Virus record (IMG/VR): IMGVR_UViG_3300048929_000150 | Coordinates: 1-28,438 of that record | From: a virus | DNA length: 28,438 nt | Reading direction: 5' to 3' (one strand) | Shown here: positions 12,733 through 25,928 of the stretch, in pieces | Layout: each line of letters starts with the position of its first letter | How positions within the stretch are numbered: the first letter of the stretch is position 1 | Made by a program: the position numbers and the translations under genes | Notes under the pieces: model-generated | Seen by the model: the letters and a program-made list of their open reading frames with translations, nothing else | Told to the model about the DNA's origin: nothing | Database searches by the model: none

Positions 12733-12873
12733 ATGGGCTTCACGCCTCAGCAGGTCAATGAAATGTCCATGTGGCAGTTCATGGCGGCAGTAGACGGGTA
12801 TGTCGAGGCAAACACTGCTGACGACAGATCCCTTACCACCAAAGAAATAGATGAACTGTGGGACTGGCTTTAA
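12733..12873 (+). CDS. tail assembly chaperone, second frame
   Basis: From ATG 12733 this encodes 46 residues, MGFTPQQVNEMSMWQFMAAV onward, a pattern found in the second tail chaperone of related phages. AGGGG (12723-12727) could serve as ribosome site. However, the frame stays open back to 12631. The upstream codons read GKLRFAAIYGTGAV, which looks like genuine protein, and no ATG, GTG or TTG lies among them. The full product may therefore come from -1 frameshifting out of the first chaperone gene. Its TAA is overlapped by the stop of a minus-strand gene. Confidence 0.72.
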   Translation: MGFTPQQVNEMSMWQFMAAVDGYVEANTADDRSLTTKEIDELWDWL

Positions 12874-13091
12874 CGGCCAGTTTTGTGAAGTTCATCATAC
12901 ATACAGTCTGCCCGCGACTTTCCGGGCTCCGCAACCGCACATTTTTCCGCCTTGAGATTATCTTTTGCTTCAAGGCATTTTTGCATTTCTGCCGAATCCT
13001 TGATCGCCAAGCATTTCGCGTCCCGGTCTGACTGAGCCGCACCAACCGTTGCGACCAATAAAATACAGGCCGAAAAAATCAGGGTTCTCAT
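12870..13091 (-). CDS. secreted protein with 12-residue cysteine repeat (moron)
   Basis: This 73-residue protein is on the opposite strand to the tail operon. The start at 13091 is set by GGGAGG, 6 nt upstream on the minus strand; a longer version from 13145 has no ribosome site and would enter the tape-measure gene. Residues 1-20 are a signal peptide (MRTLIFSACILLVATVGAAQ). The mature part has Cys at 27, 39, 51 and 63, exactly 12 apart, in repeats KCLAIKDSAEMQ, KCLEAKDNLKAE and KCAVAEPGKSRA, followed by DC. Export to the periplasm and disulfides are expected. I know no family. It is probably expressed in the prophage state or as an envelope-modifying cargo gene. Confidence 0.8.
   Translation of the reverse strand: MRTLIFSACILLVATVGAAQSDRDAKCLAIKDSAEMQKCLEAKDNLKAEKCAVAEPGKSRADCMYDELHKTGR
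12903..13016 (-). repeat. three-unit 12-codon Cys repeat
   Basis: Codons 26-63 of the minus-strand gene consist of three 36-nt units each opening with Lys-Cys, then a fourth Cys. The first two units are the most alike (KCL-x2-KD), suggesting internal duplication; the third has diverged. Confidence 0.65.
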
Positions 13092-13136
13092 AAGAATCCT
13101 CCCATTGCGACACCCACTCAGTAAGGCATTTCCCAA

Positions 13137-15542
13137 ATGGCGCAAGATCTAGAGCGTCTTGTTGTACAGCTGTCGGCTGACATCAAGAAGTACGAAAATG
13201 CCATGGCTAAGGCGATGGGAACAACTCAGAAGCGCGCTAATGAGATAGAGCGCCGGTTCCTTTCGATGAATTCGAAAGTGGAGAAATCGTTCGCTGGGAT
13301 GGGTGGTCGGATCTCTTCGTCGCTAGACGCAGCGTTGAAGTCGGCTGTTGCGATCGCTGGCACAGCACTCAGCGTTCAGCAAATTTCACAGTACGCTGAC
13401 GCGTGGACGGAGGCCGGGAACAAAATCAACGCGGCCGCTACATCGGCTGGCGTACAGGCTAGGTCTCTCGATGAACTGAAAGACGGCGCCAACGAGGCCC
13501 GTATAGCTTTTGGCGACTACGTTGACCTGTATGCTCGACTGATCAGGTCTGCATCTGGAGTGGCGAAGTCCGAGCAGGAAATTGCAACGGCAACCTCCAT
13601 TGTGTCGAAAGCCTTCAAGGCCGGAGGCGCATCAGCGCAAGAGCAAGCGGCGGGCATTTTGCAGCTAGGTCAGGCGTTGGGATCCGGCGTTCTACAAGGC
13701 GATGAGCTTCGCTCTCTTCGTGAAAACGCACCGATCTTGGCGCAGGCAATCGCGAACGAATTCAAGACCACCATCGCAGGCCTGAAGCAACTTGGCGCTG
13801 AAGGTAAATTGACCTCTGACCGCGTTTTTGCTGCGATTATTAATGCACAAAAGCCCATCGAGGCCCAGTTTAAGGCGACGAACTCGACCATCCGAGACGC
13901 TGTAACTCGGATCAACAACGAGTTTACGGCGTACATCGGCAACGCCGATGCATCCGTTGGCGCTACTGGCAAACTCGTCGAGGCACTGAACTATCTCGCA
14001 GACAACTTTAAAGAAGTTGGCGATGTCGTTTTGCAATTTATTACGATCATCACTGGAGCACTGGTTGGGCGCGCGCTTGTAGGCGTGGTTGCTGGGCTTG
14101 GAAGTGCAGTAGCCGCCTTGGGAGCATTTATCACCGCAGTTCGCACTGGTGCACTTGTAGCCGGTGGCCTAGCTGCAGCATTAGGGCCTATCGGTCTTAT
14201 CGCTGGTGGCGCAGCAGCTGCTATTTACCTCATGGTCGACAGCGCCAATGCGACCGATACGGCGATTACGAACGCAAATGCTGCGATTTCTAGCCATGCG
14301 GCGGCACTTGATGAGGCAAAATCTTCATCGCAAGGTTACACGGGGGCCCTTCGCGACCAGATTAAGATGCAGTACGAGGCCGCAAAGGCGTCATTTGATC
14401 TTGCTTATGCTGAACTCAACGCGGCGCGCGCTCGTGCTGAAAACTTCCGCACCATGACCAAGGCGTTGACCGGCTATGAACTTAGTTTCGACCCTTTCGA
14501 TTACGCTGCAAGAACCGCAGACGACAAAGCTACTGCAATCGGCAACGCTGCCCTAAACCTTAGAGCGCAGCTTGAGCGGATAGATGCTGAACTCGCTAGT
14601 CAGCCAACTGGCTTCGGTAAAGGCATCGGGTCTACCGCCGACAAACCTAAAGTGCCCAAGAAAACAGCGGATGACAAATTTCGAGAGGATATCCAGGCTA
14701 TCAAAGACAGGACTGCGGCACTTGTGCAAGAGCAGTCTACGGTTAGTCTATCATACCAAGAACAAGAGAAGCGGCGTCTAGCGCTTGATCTTGAGCAGCG
14801 CGCACTTGAGGACCTTCGTGAGGAGGCACGCAAGAAGGGTCAAACGGACCTAGAGAGCATTCAGCTCTCAGCGCAGCAGAAGAAAACGATTGACGAAGTT
14901 TCTTCCGCGTATGCGAAACAGGCTGATGCACTAAGACAGGTGGAAGAAGCTCAGCAGCGCGCCGAGAGTTCAGCGCAGGAGTTTTACGATACGGCAAAAA
15001 CAGGCTTTGTCGATGTAATCAAGGGCGCTCAGAGTTTGGGTGATGCGCTCTCAGGGCTACTCAACAAACTTGCTGATCTGGTTTTGAACAGTGCTTTCGA
15101 TTCACTTTTGGGAGGGTCGAAAGCCACAAGCAGCGGAGGGTGGCTCACTAAGCTTTTCTCCGGTTTTGCAGACGGCGGATACACCGGTGATGGCGGCAAG
15201 TACCAACCAGCAGGCATTGTTCACAAAGGTGAGTACGTGTTCGACAAGGCCGCGGTTATAGCCGCAGGCGGCCCAGCCGCACTGGAAGCAATGCGGCGTA
15301 ATCTAAAAGGCTATGCGAACGGTGGTCCGGTTGGAGTATCCGTTCCAGCAATACCGAACATACGGCCAGCAAACGATAACGCTGTGAGAGTTAATTACGC
15401 GCCCGTCATCGACGCGCGAGGAGCTGACTCCGCTGCAGTTGCAAGGCTTGAGCAGGTTGTAGCCAAACAGGGCGCTGAGATGCAGGGTCGCGTCGAAGCG
15501 GCCGTTAGATCCGCACAAAAACGAAACGTGAAGTTGGGGTAG
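13137..15542 (+). CDS. tail tape measure protein
   Basis: This 801-residue protein has the tape-measure N-terminal domain at about residues 88-270, with QARSLDELKDGANEARIAFG, the ASAQEQAAGILQLGQALGSG core and LRSLRENAPILAQAIA. A hydrophobic stretch at about 300-366 is suited to membrane insertion during DNA entry. Long charged helices follow (about 500-640). The C-terminal segment ADGGYTGDGG...GIVHKGEYVFDK is the motif often found near the end of tape measures. The protein sets tail length; by the usual 0.15 nm per residue a tail of very roughly 120 nm is expected. It follows the chaperones and the minus-strand insertion. Confidence 0.95.
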   Translation: MAQDLERLVVQLSADIKKYENAMAKAMGTTQKRANEIERRFLSMNSKVEKSFAGMGGRISSSLDAALKSAVAIAGTALSVQQISQYADAWTEAGNKINAAATSAGVQARSLDELKDGANEARIAFGDYVDLYARLIRSASGVAKSEQEIATATSIVSKAFKAGGASAQEQAAGILQLGQALGSGVLQGDELRSLRENAPILAQAIANEFKTTIAGLKQLGAEGKLTSDRVFAAIINAQKPIEAQFKATNSTIRDAVTRINNEFTAYIGNADASVGATGKLVEALNYLADNFKEVGDVVLQFITIITGALVGRALVGVVAGLGSAVAALGAFITAVRTGALVAGGLAAALGPIGLIAGGAAAAIYLMVDSANATDTAITNANAAISSHAAALDEAKSSSQGYTGALRDQIKMQYEAAKASFDLAYAELNAARARAENFRTMTKALTGYELSFDPFDYAARTADDKATAIGNAALNLRAQLERIDAELASQPTGFGKGIGSTADKPKVPKKTADDKFREDIQAIKDRTAALVQEQSTVSLSYQEQEKRRLALDLEQRALEDLREEARKKGQTDLESIQLSAQQKKTIDEVSSAYAKQADALRQVEEAQQRAESSAQEFYDTAKTGFVDVIKGAQSLGDALSGLLNKLADLVLNSAFDSLLGGSKATSSGGWLTKLFSGFADGGYTGDGGKYQPAGIVHKGEYVFDKAAVIAAGGPAALEAMRRNLKGYANGGPVGVSVPAIPNIRPANDNAVRVNYAPVIDARGADSAAVARLEQVVAKQGAEMQGRVEAAVRSAQKRNVKLG

Positions 15543-23411: not shown

Positions 23412-23723
23412 ATGGCTCCAAGAACATTTGGTGTTCGTGCCGAAACGCCGACTGAAACCGACTACGAAGCAGCCATTCAGGCGATGGTGGATACCACAGC
23501 AACTGAAAGGAAGTTTCGCGACGGCGTAACAATGGCTTCATATGTCAATTCGACCAACCCGCAATGGGCGGCAGAAGCGATTGCCTTCGTTGCGTGGCGC
23601 GATGGGGTGTGGGCCTACGCTTATGCAGAGCTCGAACAGGTCAAGACCGGGCAACGGCCGCAGCCAACCGTCGAAGATTTTTTGGCTGAGATAGAGCCTA
23701 TCGACTGGCCAGCCGAAATCTAA
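23412..23723 (+). CDS. small fibre-associated protein (XkdW-like region)
   Basis: This 103-residue protein begins at ATG 23412 with AAGGA 7 nt upstream; a start at 23340 would overlap the fibre gene. It contains AIAFVAWRDGVWAYAYAELEQV and the ending PTVEDFLAEIEPIDWPAEI, as in small proteins that follow phage fibre genes (XkdW-like or fibre assembly). It probably helps fold or attach the fibre encoded just upstream. Its TAA overlaps the stop of a minus-strand gene by 4 nt in all. Confidence 0.7.
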   Translation: MAPRTFGVRAETPTETDYEAAIQAMVDTTATERKFRDGVTMASYVNSTNPQWAAEAIAFVAWRDGVWAYAYAELEQVKTGQRPQPTVEDFLAEIEPIDWPAEI

Positions 23724-24064
23724 TCGCATGGAAAGGCATCTATGAGAGCCTTGAGCACAACGTAGCCTATTTCGTTGGGTTTCCGGTCTGCATCCGCTGG
23801 GTGGTTTTCTACGTACTTACGAAGAATTGAAACATGCTGATCGGGAGTGATACCCAACTTCGAGGGAGCGCAATACGCCTTGGTGCCATGTCGCACCGAA
23901 AAGTAAGTGTTAGACCAACCTATTCCTTCGGCAATTGAAGCTACTCGGATTCTGACTAGCTCTTCATCGTAGTCGCCAGTCAGCATACTGCCAACGGTGT
24001 CTGCGTGACTTTGATTTGGCAGTGTGATGAGTAACGCTGCGAAAATCCATCCAAAACGTTGCAA
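23720..24064 (-). CDS. Rap1a/Tai-like periplasmic immunity protein (moron)
   Basis: This 114-residue protein is encoded against the direction of the tail genes. I choose the TTG at 24064 because AGGGGG lies 5 nt upstream and the product then begins with a clean signal peptide (residues 1-21, QRFGWIFAALLITLPNQSHA). The mature part ends in the Rap1a/Tai pattern: YCAPSKLGITPDQHVSILRK, YVENHP, then VVLKALIDAFPC, with C65 and C113 likely disulfide-bonded. Characterised members neutralise type VI secretion peptidoglycan amidases in the periplasm. Here it lies next to the lysis genes. It may protect the lysogen's cell wall or block rival phages, which is inference. Confidence 0.82.
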   Translation of the reverse strand: MQRFGWIFAALLITLPNQSHADTVGSMLTGDYDEELVRIRVASIAEGIGWSNTYFSVRHGTKAYCAPSKLGITPDQHVSILRKYVENHPADADRKPNEIGYVVLKALIDAFPCD

Positions 24065-24087
24065 GCTAGCCCCCTGAGCATTCTGGC

Positions 24088-24116
24088 AACATAGATTACA
24101 GGACTTCAAAACACAA
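24088..24116 (-). promoter_or_regulatory. possible promoter of the immunity-like gene
   Basis: On the minus strand, TTGTGT (24116-24111) and TATGTT (24093-24088) are 17 bp apart in an AT-rich stretch, placing a start site just before the AGGGGG ribosome site. The -35 match is weak, so this is only a candidate, but independent expression would suit a moron. Confidence 0.35.
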
Positions 24117-24182
24117 AAATAGTCCGCTGAGAACACCGCGCTTATCGCAGCAATTCCACTTCATCCAAAAACTAGGAAACCA

Positions 24183-24398
24183 ATGCTCATCCACAACTGG
24201 CGGCAGGTGCTTAAGCGCGCCTGGTCTGTCCGCCTCATTGTGCTTGCCGCGGTACTCACCGGCGTCGAGGCAATGCTTCCATTTATCGCGCTACCGGTTC
24301 CTCCCGGGCTGTTTGCCTGGCTCACGCTTGCCGTGACCGCAGGGGCATTCGTGGCGCGCTTCCTTGCTCAAAAGGAGGGCAGTGATGCCAATCAATAA
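24183..24398 (+). CDS. holin-like membrane protein
   Basis: This 71-residue protein has two transmembrane segments, about residues 17-37 (RLIVLAAVLTGVEAMLPFIA) and 42-63 (GLFAWLTLAVTAGAFVARFL), with a basic N-terminus and a polar C-terminus. It is followed by an SAR-type endolysin gene that it overlaps by 14 nt. With an SAR endolysin a small pore that collapses membrane potential is sufficient. Proteins like this are found directly before the endolysin in related Rhizobiales phages. AGGAAA serves as ribosome site. Confidence 0.78.
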   Translation: MLIHNWRQVLKRAWSVRLIVLAAVLTGVEAMLPFIALPVPPGLFAWLTLAVTAGAFVARFLAQKEGSDANQ

Positions 24399-25014
24399 AA
24401 TCGTCGCCACGAAGCGCGGGAAGGCGGCTATTGCAGCTGCTCTAATCGCTGCAGCAGCTGGCGGCTGGCAGTCCCACAAGGACACAAGCGAACGCGTGCT
24501 GCCACCTGCCGTCATTCTCGCGACGGATGCACTGATCCTTCCTTGGGAGGGTATGGTGTTGACATCTCACTGGGACAGGTTCGCGAAGATCTACGACATC
24601 TGCGCTGGCATCACTCGGATCAATGGCAAGCCTGTTGGTCCGAACATGCGTTTTACCCGCACTCAGTGCGAGGAAATGACACGCGAGCAGATCTACAACG
24701 ACTATTACCTGCCGCTTGTGAAAGCCGTTCCTGGCTACACAAGTTTCCCGATCGGTGTGCAGGCAGCAATGCTGTCTGGCGCTTATAATTTCGGGGTTGG
24801 ATCTATTGCATCCCGAAAGGGCATGGCTGGCTCGACCGCGACCAGATTGCACATGGCTGGCCAGCACTGGAAGGGCTGCGAAGCCCAGACGGCTTGGAAC
24901 AAAGCTGGCGGGCAGGTCGTGCAGGGTTTGGTGAAGCGCCGCGAGATGGGCGACGCGCAGCGCAAGGGCGAGGCAGAAATCTGCGTTTCTGGCCTCAAGG
25001 ATGGCCAGCGATGA
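24385..25014 (+). CDS. SAR endolysin, GH24-type lysozyme
   Basis: This 209-residue protein is translated from ATG 24385, with AAGGAGG (24372-24378) upstream. Residues 12-28 (GKAAIAAALIAAAAGGW) are a weakly hydrophobic, Ala/Gly-rich signal-anchor-release segment. The lysozyme core shows E55 in PWEGM and D64 in HWDRF, matching the GH24 Glu-x8-Asp spacing. Cysteines at 73 and 95 are typical of the rhizobial subgroup. The residue aligned with T4 Thr26 appears to be D71 (IYDICAGIT). It cuts peptidoglycan glycan strands after release from the membrane. It overlaps the spanin gene by ATGA. Confidence 0.88.
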   Translation: MPINKIVATKRGKAAIAAALIAAAAGGWQSHKDTSERVLPPAVILATDALILPWEGMVLTSHWDRFAKIYDICAGITRINGKPVGPNMRFTRTQCEEMTREQIYNDYYLPLVKAVPGYTSFPIGVQAAMLSGAYNFGVGSIASRKGMAGSTATRLHMAGQHWKGCEAQTAWNKAGGQVVQGLVKRREMGDAQRKGEAEICVSGLKDGQR

Positions 25015-25379
25015 GCATCTTCCTCAGCAAGCCAGCCTTTTATCTCTACGGCGTGATCGCCGCTGCGGTGCTTCTGTGGGCCGTGCATACGCACATCTAC
25101 AACAGCGGCTATGACGACGCCGTTCTGGTGAAGGACGCAGAGATAGCCGAACTGAAGAGGGCGGTCACAGAAGCCCGCAACGCCGAGGTTGAGCGGCAAG
25201 ACGCCGCCAACAATGCCGCCAAGCTCCGCGAGGCGCAACGCATCGCCGAGATGCAGGCCGAAAACGAACTACTTCAATCTCAAATCGAGGAGCTGGGGCG
25301 TGAAGCTGACCAAGATCCTGATGCTGGTCGCGTTGTGCTTGGTGCTCCCAGCGTGCAGCGCATTAACAAGATCCGATAA
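25011..25379 (+). CDS. Rz: inner-membrane spanin (Rz-like)
   Basis: This 122-residue protein starts at ATG 25011, overlapping the endolysin stop. A single N-terminal membrane anchor at residues 9-24 (FYLYGVIAAAVLLWAV) is followed by a long charged coiled coil (about 38-105). This is the i-spanin layout, bridging the periplasm with its outer-membrane partner to fuse membranes at the end of lysis. The partner gene starts inside it in another frame. Confidence 0.85.
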   Translation: MSIFLSKPAFYLYGVIAAAVLLWAVHTHIYNSGYDDAVLVKDAEIAELKRAVTEARNAEVERQDAANNAAKLREAQRIAEMQAENELLQSQIEELGREADQDPDAGRVVLGAPSVQRINKIR

Positions 25380-25602
25380 GGTAGCGGTCCCGCCACCTCC
25401 ACCACGTCTGACAAAGCCAGACACCATTCTGCTGGAGCAATGCAAAGGCCCGACGGACTTGGGCAACGACCCACTTTCGCAGACCCGTCTGGAAAAGCTT
25501 TGGATCACTGATCGTGAGCGGTTGGTGTCATGCCTACGAAAGCACCTGGCGCTGCGTGATTTTTACGAACAACGCGACAATGGCCTGCGAGGTACGAAAT
25601 GA
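25300..25602 (+). CDS. Rz1: outer-membrane spanin lipoprotein (Rz1-like)
   Basis: This 100-residue lipoprotein most likely starts at GTG 25300, with GAGGAG (25287-25292) 7 nt upstream; an in-frame ATG at 25321 is a weaker alternative. The signal peptide ends in the lipobox LPAC, putting the lipidated Cys at 19. A proline run (VPPPPPRLTKP) follows, as in other Rz1 proteins. The start lies in the i-spanin gene in another frame and the rest extends beyond it, the nested/extended arrangement known from lambda-type spanins. Mature size (about 80 residues) is longer than lambda Rz1. Its TGA is part of an 11-bp repeat. Confidence 0.85.
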   Translation: MKLTKILMLVALCLVLPACSALTRSDKVAVPPPPPRLTKPDTILLEQCKGPTDLGNDPLSQTRLEKLWITDRERLVSCLRKHLALRDFYEQRDNGLRGTK

Positions 25603-25608: not shown

Positions 25609-25649
25609 TGACACTAAGGGTTGACGCCAACCAAGCCCATGAGACTATT

Positions 25650-25865
25650 TCAGCGCTTGCCGATGCGACTGAGCTTTTTCCTCAACTTGGCGATGCTATC
25701 CTCCGCCTGCTTGATGCCGGAGAGGAGCTTTTCCTTCTCCATCCTGACGACACTGTTGCAGCCTTCGCAGGTGAAGTCGTCGTGAGCCTTTATCCAAGCG
25801 ACCGTTTTCTCAGTCTTGTGTCCGCATTTCGGGCACGGGAGCCCAAGTGTTTGCTTTTCGAACAT
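25650..25865 (-). CDS. zinc-ribbon protein (moron)
   Basis: This 71-residue protein is encoded on the minus strand. It begins MFEKQTLGLPCPKCGHKTEK and has two Cys pairs, C11/C14 (CPKCG) and C33/C36 (CEGC), that bind zinc. A charged helix with coiled-coil tendency follows (about 42-68). The start at 25865 has a G-rich ribosome region (GGGGGG). Similar small zinc-ribbon proteins are frequent, uncharacterised, in alphaproteobacteria. It occupies the insertion between two 11-bp repeats. The overlapping + strand frame (25599-25922) lacks any recognisable domain and is considered a by-product. A nucleic-acid or protein-binding role is inferred only from the fold. Confidence 0.78.
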   Translation of the reverse strand: MFEKQTLGLPCPKCGHKTEKTVAWIKAHDDFTCEGCNSVVRMEKEKLLSGIKQAEDSIAKLRKKLSRIGKR

Positions 25866-25917
25866 TTCATCCCCCCGGTTGAATTGCAGCATAGCAACAC
25901 AACTCGGGATCATGTGC

Positions 25918-25928
25918 AATGACCGGCC
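25918..25928 (+). repeat. direct repeat, right copy (AATGACCGGCC)
   Basis: This is the second copy of the 11-bp repeat. It carries the ATG of the following membrane gene. If the 320 bp between equivalent points of the two copies were removed, the Rz1 stop would overlap this start in the ATGA manner seen throughout the operon. Confidence 0.8.

Follow-up and report, generated by a model that had tools for sequence, protein, structure and literature searches.

The locus between the tail and lysis genes

The window, i.e., the whole 28,438-nucleotide stretch of viral DNA analyzed here (IMG/VR record IMGVR_UViG_3300048929_000150), codes for a terminase that is 74% identical to the terminases of phage 16-3, which is temperate, and of the related AP-16-3, and the phage origin originally proposed for its Rap1a-like gene is borne out. 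The predicted position beside the lysis genes is also correct, in that the gene adjoins the holin, which is followed by the lysozyme and the Rz-like spanins. The features of the locus are as follows.

23412..23723, plus strand: left flank, gene for a small tail-associated protein (86% identity to its L007 counterpart)
23711..24164: inserted cassette of 454 bp, GC 0.482, replacing 14 bp of the empty-site phage L007
23720..24064, minus strand: gene for the Rap1a-like secreted protein (114 aa), starting with TTG, PF18602 at 29.8 bits
23723..24001, minus strand: mature part, 93 aa, with Cys65 and Cys113
24002..24064, minus strand: putative signal peptide, residues 1-21, cleavage between SHA and DTV as judged by eye
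24070..24075, minus strand: Shine-Dalgarno sequence AGGGGG, 5 nt 5′ of the TTG, read directly from the sequence
24183..24398, plus strand: right flank, holin (PF25612, phrog_1356)
24385..25014, plus strand: lysozyme with an N-terminal hydrophobic segment (PF00959, phrog_7 endolysin)
25011..25602, plus strand: Rz-like and Rz1-like spanins, overlapping

The Rap1a-like open reading frame (ORF), whose product is designated P0001, runs on the minus strand from a TTG at 24064 to a stop at 23720, and its 3′ end overlaps that of the plus-strand tail-associated gene, which extends to 23723. The coordinates given in the original prediction (23720-24064) thus stand, with the strand being minus. There is an alternative GTG start at 24136, which would give a longer form with the signal peptide buried. 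The frame has the top codon score among the six, though weakly positive; no consensus promoter was found upstream of the gene and no terminator was found for it. The N-terminus of P0001 (MQRFGWIFAALLITLPNQSHA-D) has, by eye, the look of a Sec signal peptide, in keeping with the secretion signal proposed for it, and the mature 93-residue protein has a pI of 5.5 and a Rap1a-like FPC-D ending. The two cysteines that were part of the same proposal are present at residues 65 and 113.

An inserted cassette in a turnover slot

Comparison with phage L007 places the gene within an insertion. The BLASTN match of the window to L007 stops at 23710 and restarts at 24165, corresponding to L007 coordinates 45341 and 45356, and there are thus 454 bp where L007 has 14 bp. 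One tail protein (98%), the holin (100%), and the lysozyme (94%) are closely similar in the two phages, and in L007 the tail-side gene and the holin are only a few bases apart with the Rap1a-like gene absent. The GC content of the cassette compares with 0.55 for the window and is in the lowest 0.25% of same-size windows. Two properties expected of a moron are thus seen here, with presence and absence between conserved genes, and with GC content and strand that differ from those of the flanks. From these sequence comparisons, the Rap1a-like gene is probably a cassette that was acquired whole.

The slot between the tail genes and the holin is variously occupied in related phages, with nearly all of the occupants on the minus strand. 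It contains genes for Acyl_transf_3 proteins in L010, L096, L100, and L101 (minus strand) and in L102 (plus strand), a methyltransferase in L021, an unrelated 81-aa protein in L020, a lipoprotein with weak RcsF/YbjQ similarity in L016, and proteins with no Pfam match in L008 (392 aa) and RHph_TM3_3_14B (694 aa). A prophage of Mesorhizobium sp. AR07 (L033, 4884-7051) has a glycosyltransferase gene on the minus strand, and GtrA and a methyltransferase-like ORF on the plus strand, likely a serotype-conversion cassette. The slot is empty in L007, L103, L104, and RHph_N1_10. In phage 16-3 the tail fibre gene is followed by immXL, a minus-strand gene coding for a GNAT acetyltransferase that overlaps immXU, and the immX region is described as responsible for immunity (PMC10460002); in AP-16-3 the gene after the tail fibre gene codes for an FkbM methyltransferase, also on the minus strand. 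These two positions are analogous to the tail-holin slot rather than strictly the same.

The slot occupants are chiefly envelope modifiers, which suggests lysogenic conversion directed at the envelope, and by analogy the Rap1a-like gene may serve the same broad purpose. The empty site, together with a slot held chiefly by envelope modifiers in relatives, therefore argues for a moron inserted where lysogenic-conversion genes are found. It resembles other phage morons and lysogenic-conversion loci (O-antigen acetylases, gtr sets, and the 16-3 immX position) in being a single reverse-oriented cassette of lower GC content, placed between conserved late genes and subject to turnover among relatives, but it differs from them in that its product is a secreted protein and not a surface-modifying enzyme.

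A Rap1a branch with kin on mobile elements

P0001 matches a single Pfam family by hmmscan, PF18602 (Rap1a; E 8.6e-7), and its score exceeds the curated cut-off of 27.7 bits, in agreement with the family assignment of the original prediction. The match spans profile positions 40-90 of 90, i.e., the C-terminal half only. A profile of the P0001 subfamily aligns at full length (110 columns, 97.9%) with orphan Rap1a proteins, and Cys65 and Cys113 are aligned and invariant. These residues correspond to the disulfides Cys78-Cys122 of Serratia marcescens Rap1a (PMC3852654) and Cys80-Cys124 of AtTai4 (PMC6277958); Rap1a and AtTai4 are disulfide-held helical dimers that obstruct the Tae4 active-site entrance (PMC3852654; PMC6277958). 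With these structural references (Rap1a, or Tai4a, of S. marcescens and AtTai4 of Agrobacterium; PF18602; PDB 3ZFI, 4BI8, 6IJE, and 6IJF) P0001 shares small size, secretion, acidity, the FPC ending, and an equally placed cysteine pair; unlike them, it is without a Tae4 partner, is in another clade, and differs in its N-terminal half, which has a W-x-N motif and more residues ahead of the first cysteine.

The subfamily profile without Tae4-linked rows fails to retrieve the Rap1a and AtTai4 PDB structures, and a match of profile A5 to 6IJE (E 1.3e-4) was discounted, as A5 held a Tae4-linked row and the match was gone without such rows. The single-sequence AlphaFold model of P0001, made without an alignment, has a pLDDT of 47, below use for fold comparison, and an alignment of five relatives is too divergent for a pattern search. 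P0001 has no match in PHROGs, NCBIfam, or the catalogued anti-phage defense families of PADLOC-DB, and no close relatives of it or of its subfamily were found in 50,697 phage records, in viral contigs, or in genome contigs.

Among 200 Rhizobiaceae genomes, PF18602 proteins are present in 16 and Tae4 in eight, and four have adjacent Tae4 and Rap1a genes (within ∼160 bp), a positive control in which the pairs are ∼5 to 6 kb from the T6SS gene VipA. The Rap1a proteins of these four genomes form one clade with AtTai4-like sequence, and P0001 is on the opposite side of a split from them in two trees (support 99/95 and 98/99), although the forks within the P0001 side are weak. By hhalign, the P0001 subfamily and Tae4-linked profiles match with a probability of 40% and over 49 C-terminal columns only. 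Relatives in the P0001 subfamily (E 0.001) were found in 10 of 397 genomes of the order and 13 of 385 of the class, and inspection revealed no Tae4 beside these genes; in 12 subfamily genomes checked there is no adjacent Tae4, and one has Tae4 elsewhere. No Tae4 was found in the phage neighborhood of the Rap1a-like gene. Many of the chromosomal subfamily members are solitary, with no toxin or mobile gene close by.

From a match to a Serratia plasmid we arrived at a group of F-type plasmids from Serratia, E. albertii, Salmonella, and Erwinia. In all five plasmid types examined, a Rap1a-like gene is located between the post-traG ORF and traD, an interval occupied by traT in the tra order of F. 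The Rap1a-like genes at this position in the F-type plasmids of Enterobacterales are as follows.

L006, 5827-6240
L115, 4992-5387
L116, 4995-5390
L117, 4908-5318
L118, 4806-5222

TraT (PF05818) is absent from all five types, and in three the post-traG ORF weakly resembles TraS. The profile of the plasmid proteins matches the P0001 subfamily at full length (98.4% probability, E 4e-15) and the Tae4-linked clade at 1.7%, with reversed-profile controls at 0.1 to 0.8%. The plasmid proteins fall within the P0001 side of the tree; the Serratia protein has a long branch, and its placement was checked together with four further plasmid types. The traT-position proteins (e.g., WP_204620339.1 and WP_157783295.1) are thus like P0001 in tree position, secretion, carriage by mobile elements, and full-length profile match, and unlike it in having a longer N-terminus, in being co-directional within a conjugation operon, and in being at best ∼27% identical. 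It is possible that the plasmid protein is an unrecognized exclusion protein. We note, however, that a location in the tra operon does not prove exclusion, and that in the Erwinia plasmid a lytic transglycosylase gene adjoins the Rap1a-like gene, an arrangement that would fit a regulator of a wall hydrolase equally well.

Pararhizobium qamdonense plasmid p5 (115.7 kb) codes for terminase, capsid, tape measure, tail, and lysozyme proteins as well as ParA/ParB, and is thus a phage-plasmid. Its two Rap1a family members are coded antiparallel to the structural genes, ∼45 kb from the lysozyme gene. One of these (WP_276122691.1) is like P0001 in being phage-borne, in its opposing strand, and in belonging to the same subfamily (30% identity), but unlike P0001 it is outside the tail-lysis slot and is adjoined by the second, more typical Rap1a. 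The p5 gene order near the lysozyme (L110, NZ_CP119570.1 40000-89900; PhoH and DnaB-like genes) resembles that of RHph_N1_10, a Rhizobium phage of 116 kb.

Possible roles of P0001

The observation behind the original prediction is confirmed and its interpretation is partly supported, with the locus carrying a moron of the Rap1a family whose branch is linked with mobile elements. We tentatively favor, with a probability of about 0.4, a moron whose exported product shields the envelope of the lysogen, with an exclusion role against a competing phage or mobile element. A single-gene cassette would have been gained whole and in reverse orientation in the tail-lysis turnover slot, which related rhizobial phages appear to use for envelope-directed genes of lysogenic conversion. 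The gene would be expressed in the lysogen and P0001 exported to the periplasm, where it would fold as a small disulfide-held helical protein, presumably dimeric as in Rap1a. It could then bind and sterically hinder a protein attacking or penetrating the envelope and so protect the lysogen, the likeliest opponents being proteins of a competing phage or of another mobile element, either its entry machinery or its wall hydrolase. In this reading P0001 would shield the lysogen from within the periplasm and could be an exclusion factor. Inhibition of the wall-degrading proteins of incoming phages, another of the original suggestions, may also apply. Counting against this reading are the low identity of the plasmid proteins to P0001, the weak forks within its side of the tree, the Erwinia transglycosylase gene, the failure to find a promoter, the poor AlphaFold model, and the fact that just one phage-like element with the subfamily is known besides the window.

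A wider proposal, unlikely at present, is that the P0001 clade as a whole is a mobile-element exclusion family. Its members would act in surface or entry exclusion from the traT position in F-type plasmids without TraT, and in periplasmic superinfection exclusion when carried by phages or phage-plasmids of rhizobia, and T6SS immunity would be a sister use to which the fold is put. We found no description of Rap1a-like proteins as exclusion factors in the open-access papers searched. If the proposal is true, the label "Rap1a immunity protein" would be misleading for an entire branch, and plasmids and phages would have in common an exclusion factor of a new kind.

The foremost alternative is that P0001 is an acquired T6SS immunity protein that blocks a Tae4-type or other wall-targeting effector from neighboring cells, such that the prophage raises the competitiveness of its host. 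Membership in PF18602, the Rap1a-type cysteine pair, a pI within the range of 5.1 to 6.3 reported for Rap proteins (PMC3852654), and the Tae4-Rap1a pairs near T6SS genes in 4 of the 200 Rhizobiaceae genomes are all consistent with this. However, P0001 is separated from the Tae4-linked proteins with a support of 98/99, the two profiles share little beyond their C-terminal columns, and Tae4 is present, nonadjacent, in only 1 of 12 subfamily genomes. The Pfam model also leaves the N-terminal half of P0001 unmatched, and it is the counterpart of this half in AtTai4 that adds further Tae4 contacts (PMC6277958). The immunity to type VI amidases that was originally suggested is thus not supported, as the Tae4-linked Rap1a proteins form a separate clade and the P0001 subfamily is without Tae4 linkage. 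Although unlikely, this alternative retains a real share of the probability because Ralstonia prophages carry T6SS toxin/immunity clusters (PMC11481896). Judged by its slot, its clade, and the position of the plasmid genes, P0001 seems likelier to oppose a rival phage or mobile element than a T6SS amidase, without the data deciding the matter, and with either opponent the protein bound could be a wall hydrolase.

Alternatively, the gene may contribute to lysogen fitness through some other envelope role unrelated to attack or entry, for example as a periplasmic chaperone-like or surface factor in plant or soil life. The varied roles of the slot occupants and the solitary chromosomal members would suit such a function, but those structural relatives that are known inhibit wall enzymes, and carriage by mobile elements recurs within the P0001 clade, and we consider this rather improbable. 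It is very improbable that P0001 is a periplasmic inhibitor of the neighboring lysozyme that sets the time of lysis, as in the control of wall cutting that was also originally suggested; the gene adjoins the holin-lysozyme-spanin cassette, and P0001 is acidic and the lysozyme basic (pI 9.3 to 9.6), but the cassette is complete without the gene in L007, L020 has an unrelated gene in its place, the gene is an insertion antiparallel to the lysis genes, and the p5 family members are distant from the lysozyme.

If the moron reading alone holds, without the wider exclusion family, there is still a variable envelope-gene slot adjoining the lysis cassette of rhizobial phages, and this could be searched for new anti-phage and host-fitness genes.

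Other variable sites are present in the window. A third insertion relative to L007 (∼309 bp, 25609-25917) is located 3′ of the Rz1 gene and contains a zinc-ribbon ORF on the minus strand (25650-25919). A second small secreted protein, with four cysteines, is coded on the minus strand at 12870-13145, just ahead of the tape measure gene, and this site is another moron slot because in relatives it is occupied by other minus-strand genes, for a YbjQ protein in G001 and a lipoprotein in G014. Two adjacent tRNA genes (Met and Ser) precede the packaging genes (2413-2691), and parts of this region are 97 to 99% conserved in the L007 and L020 phages.
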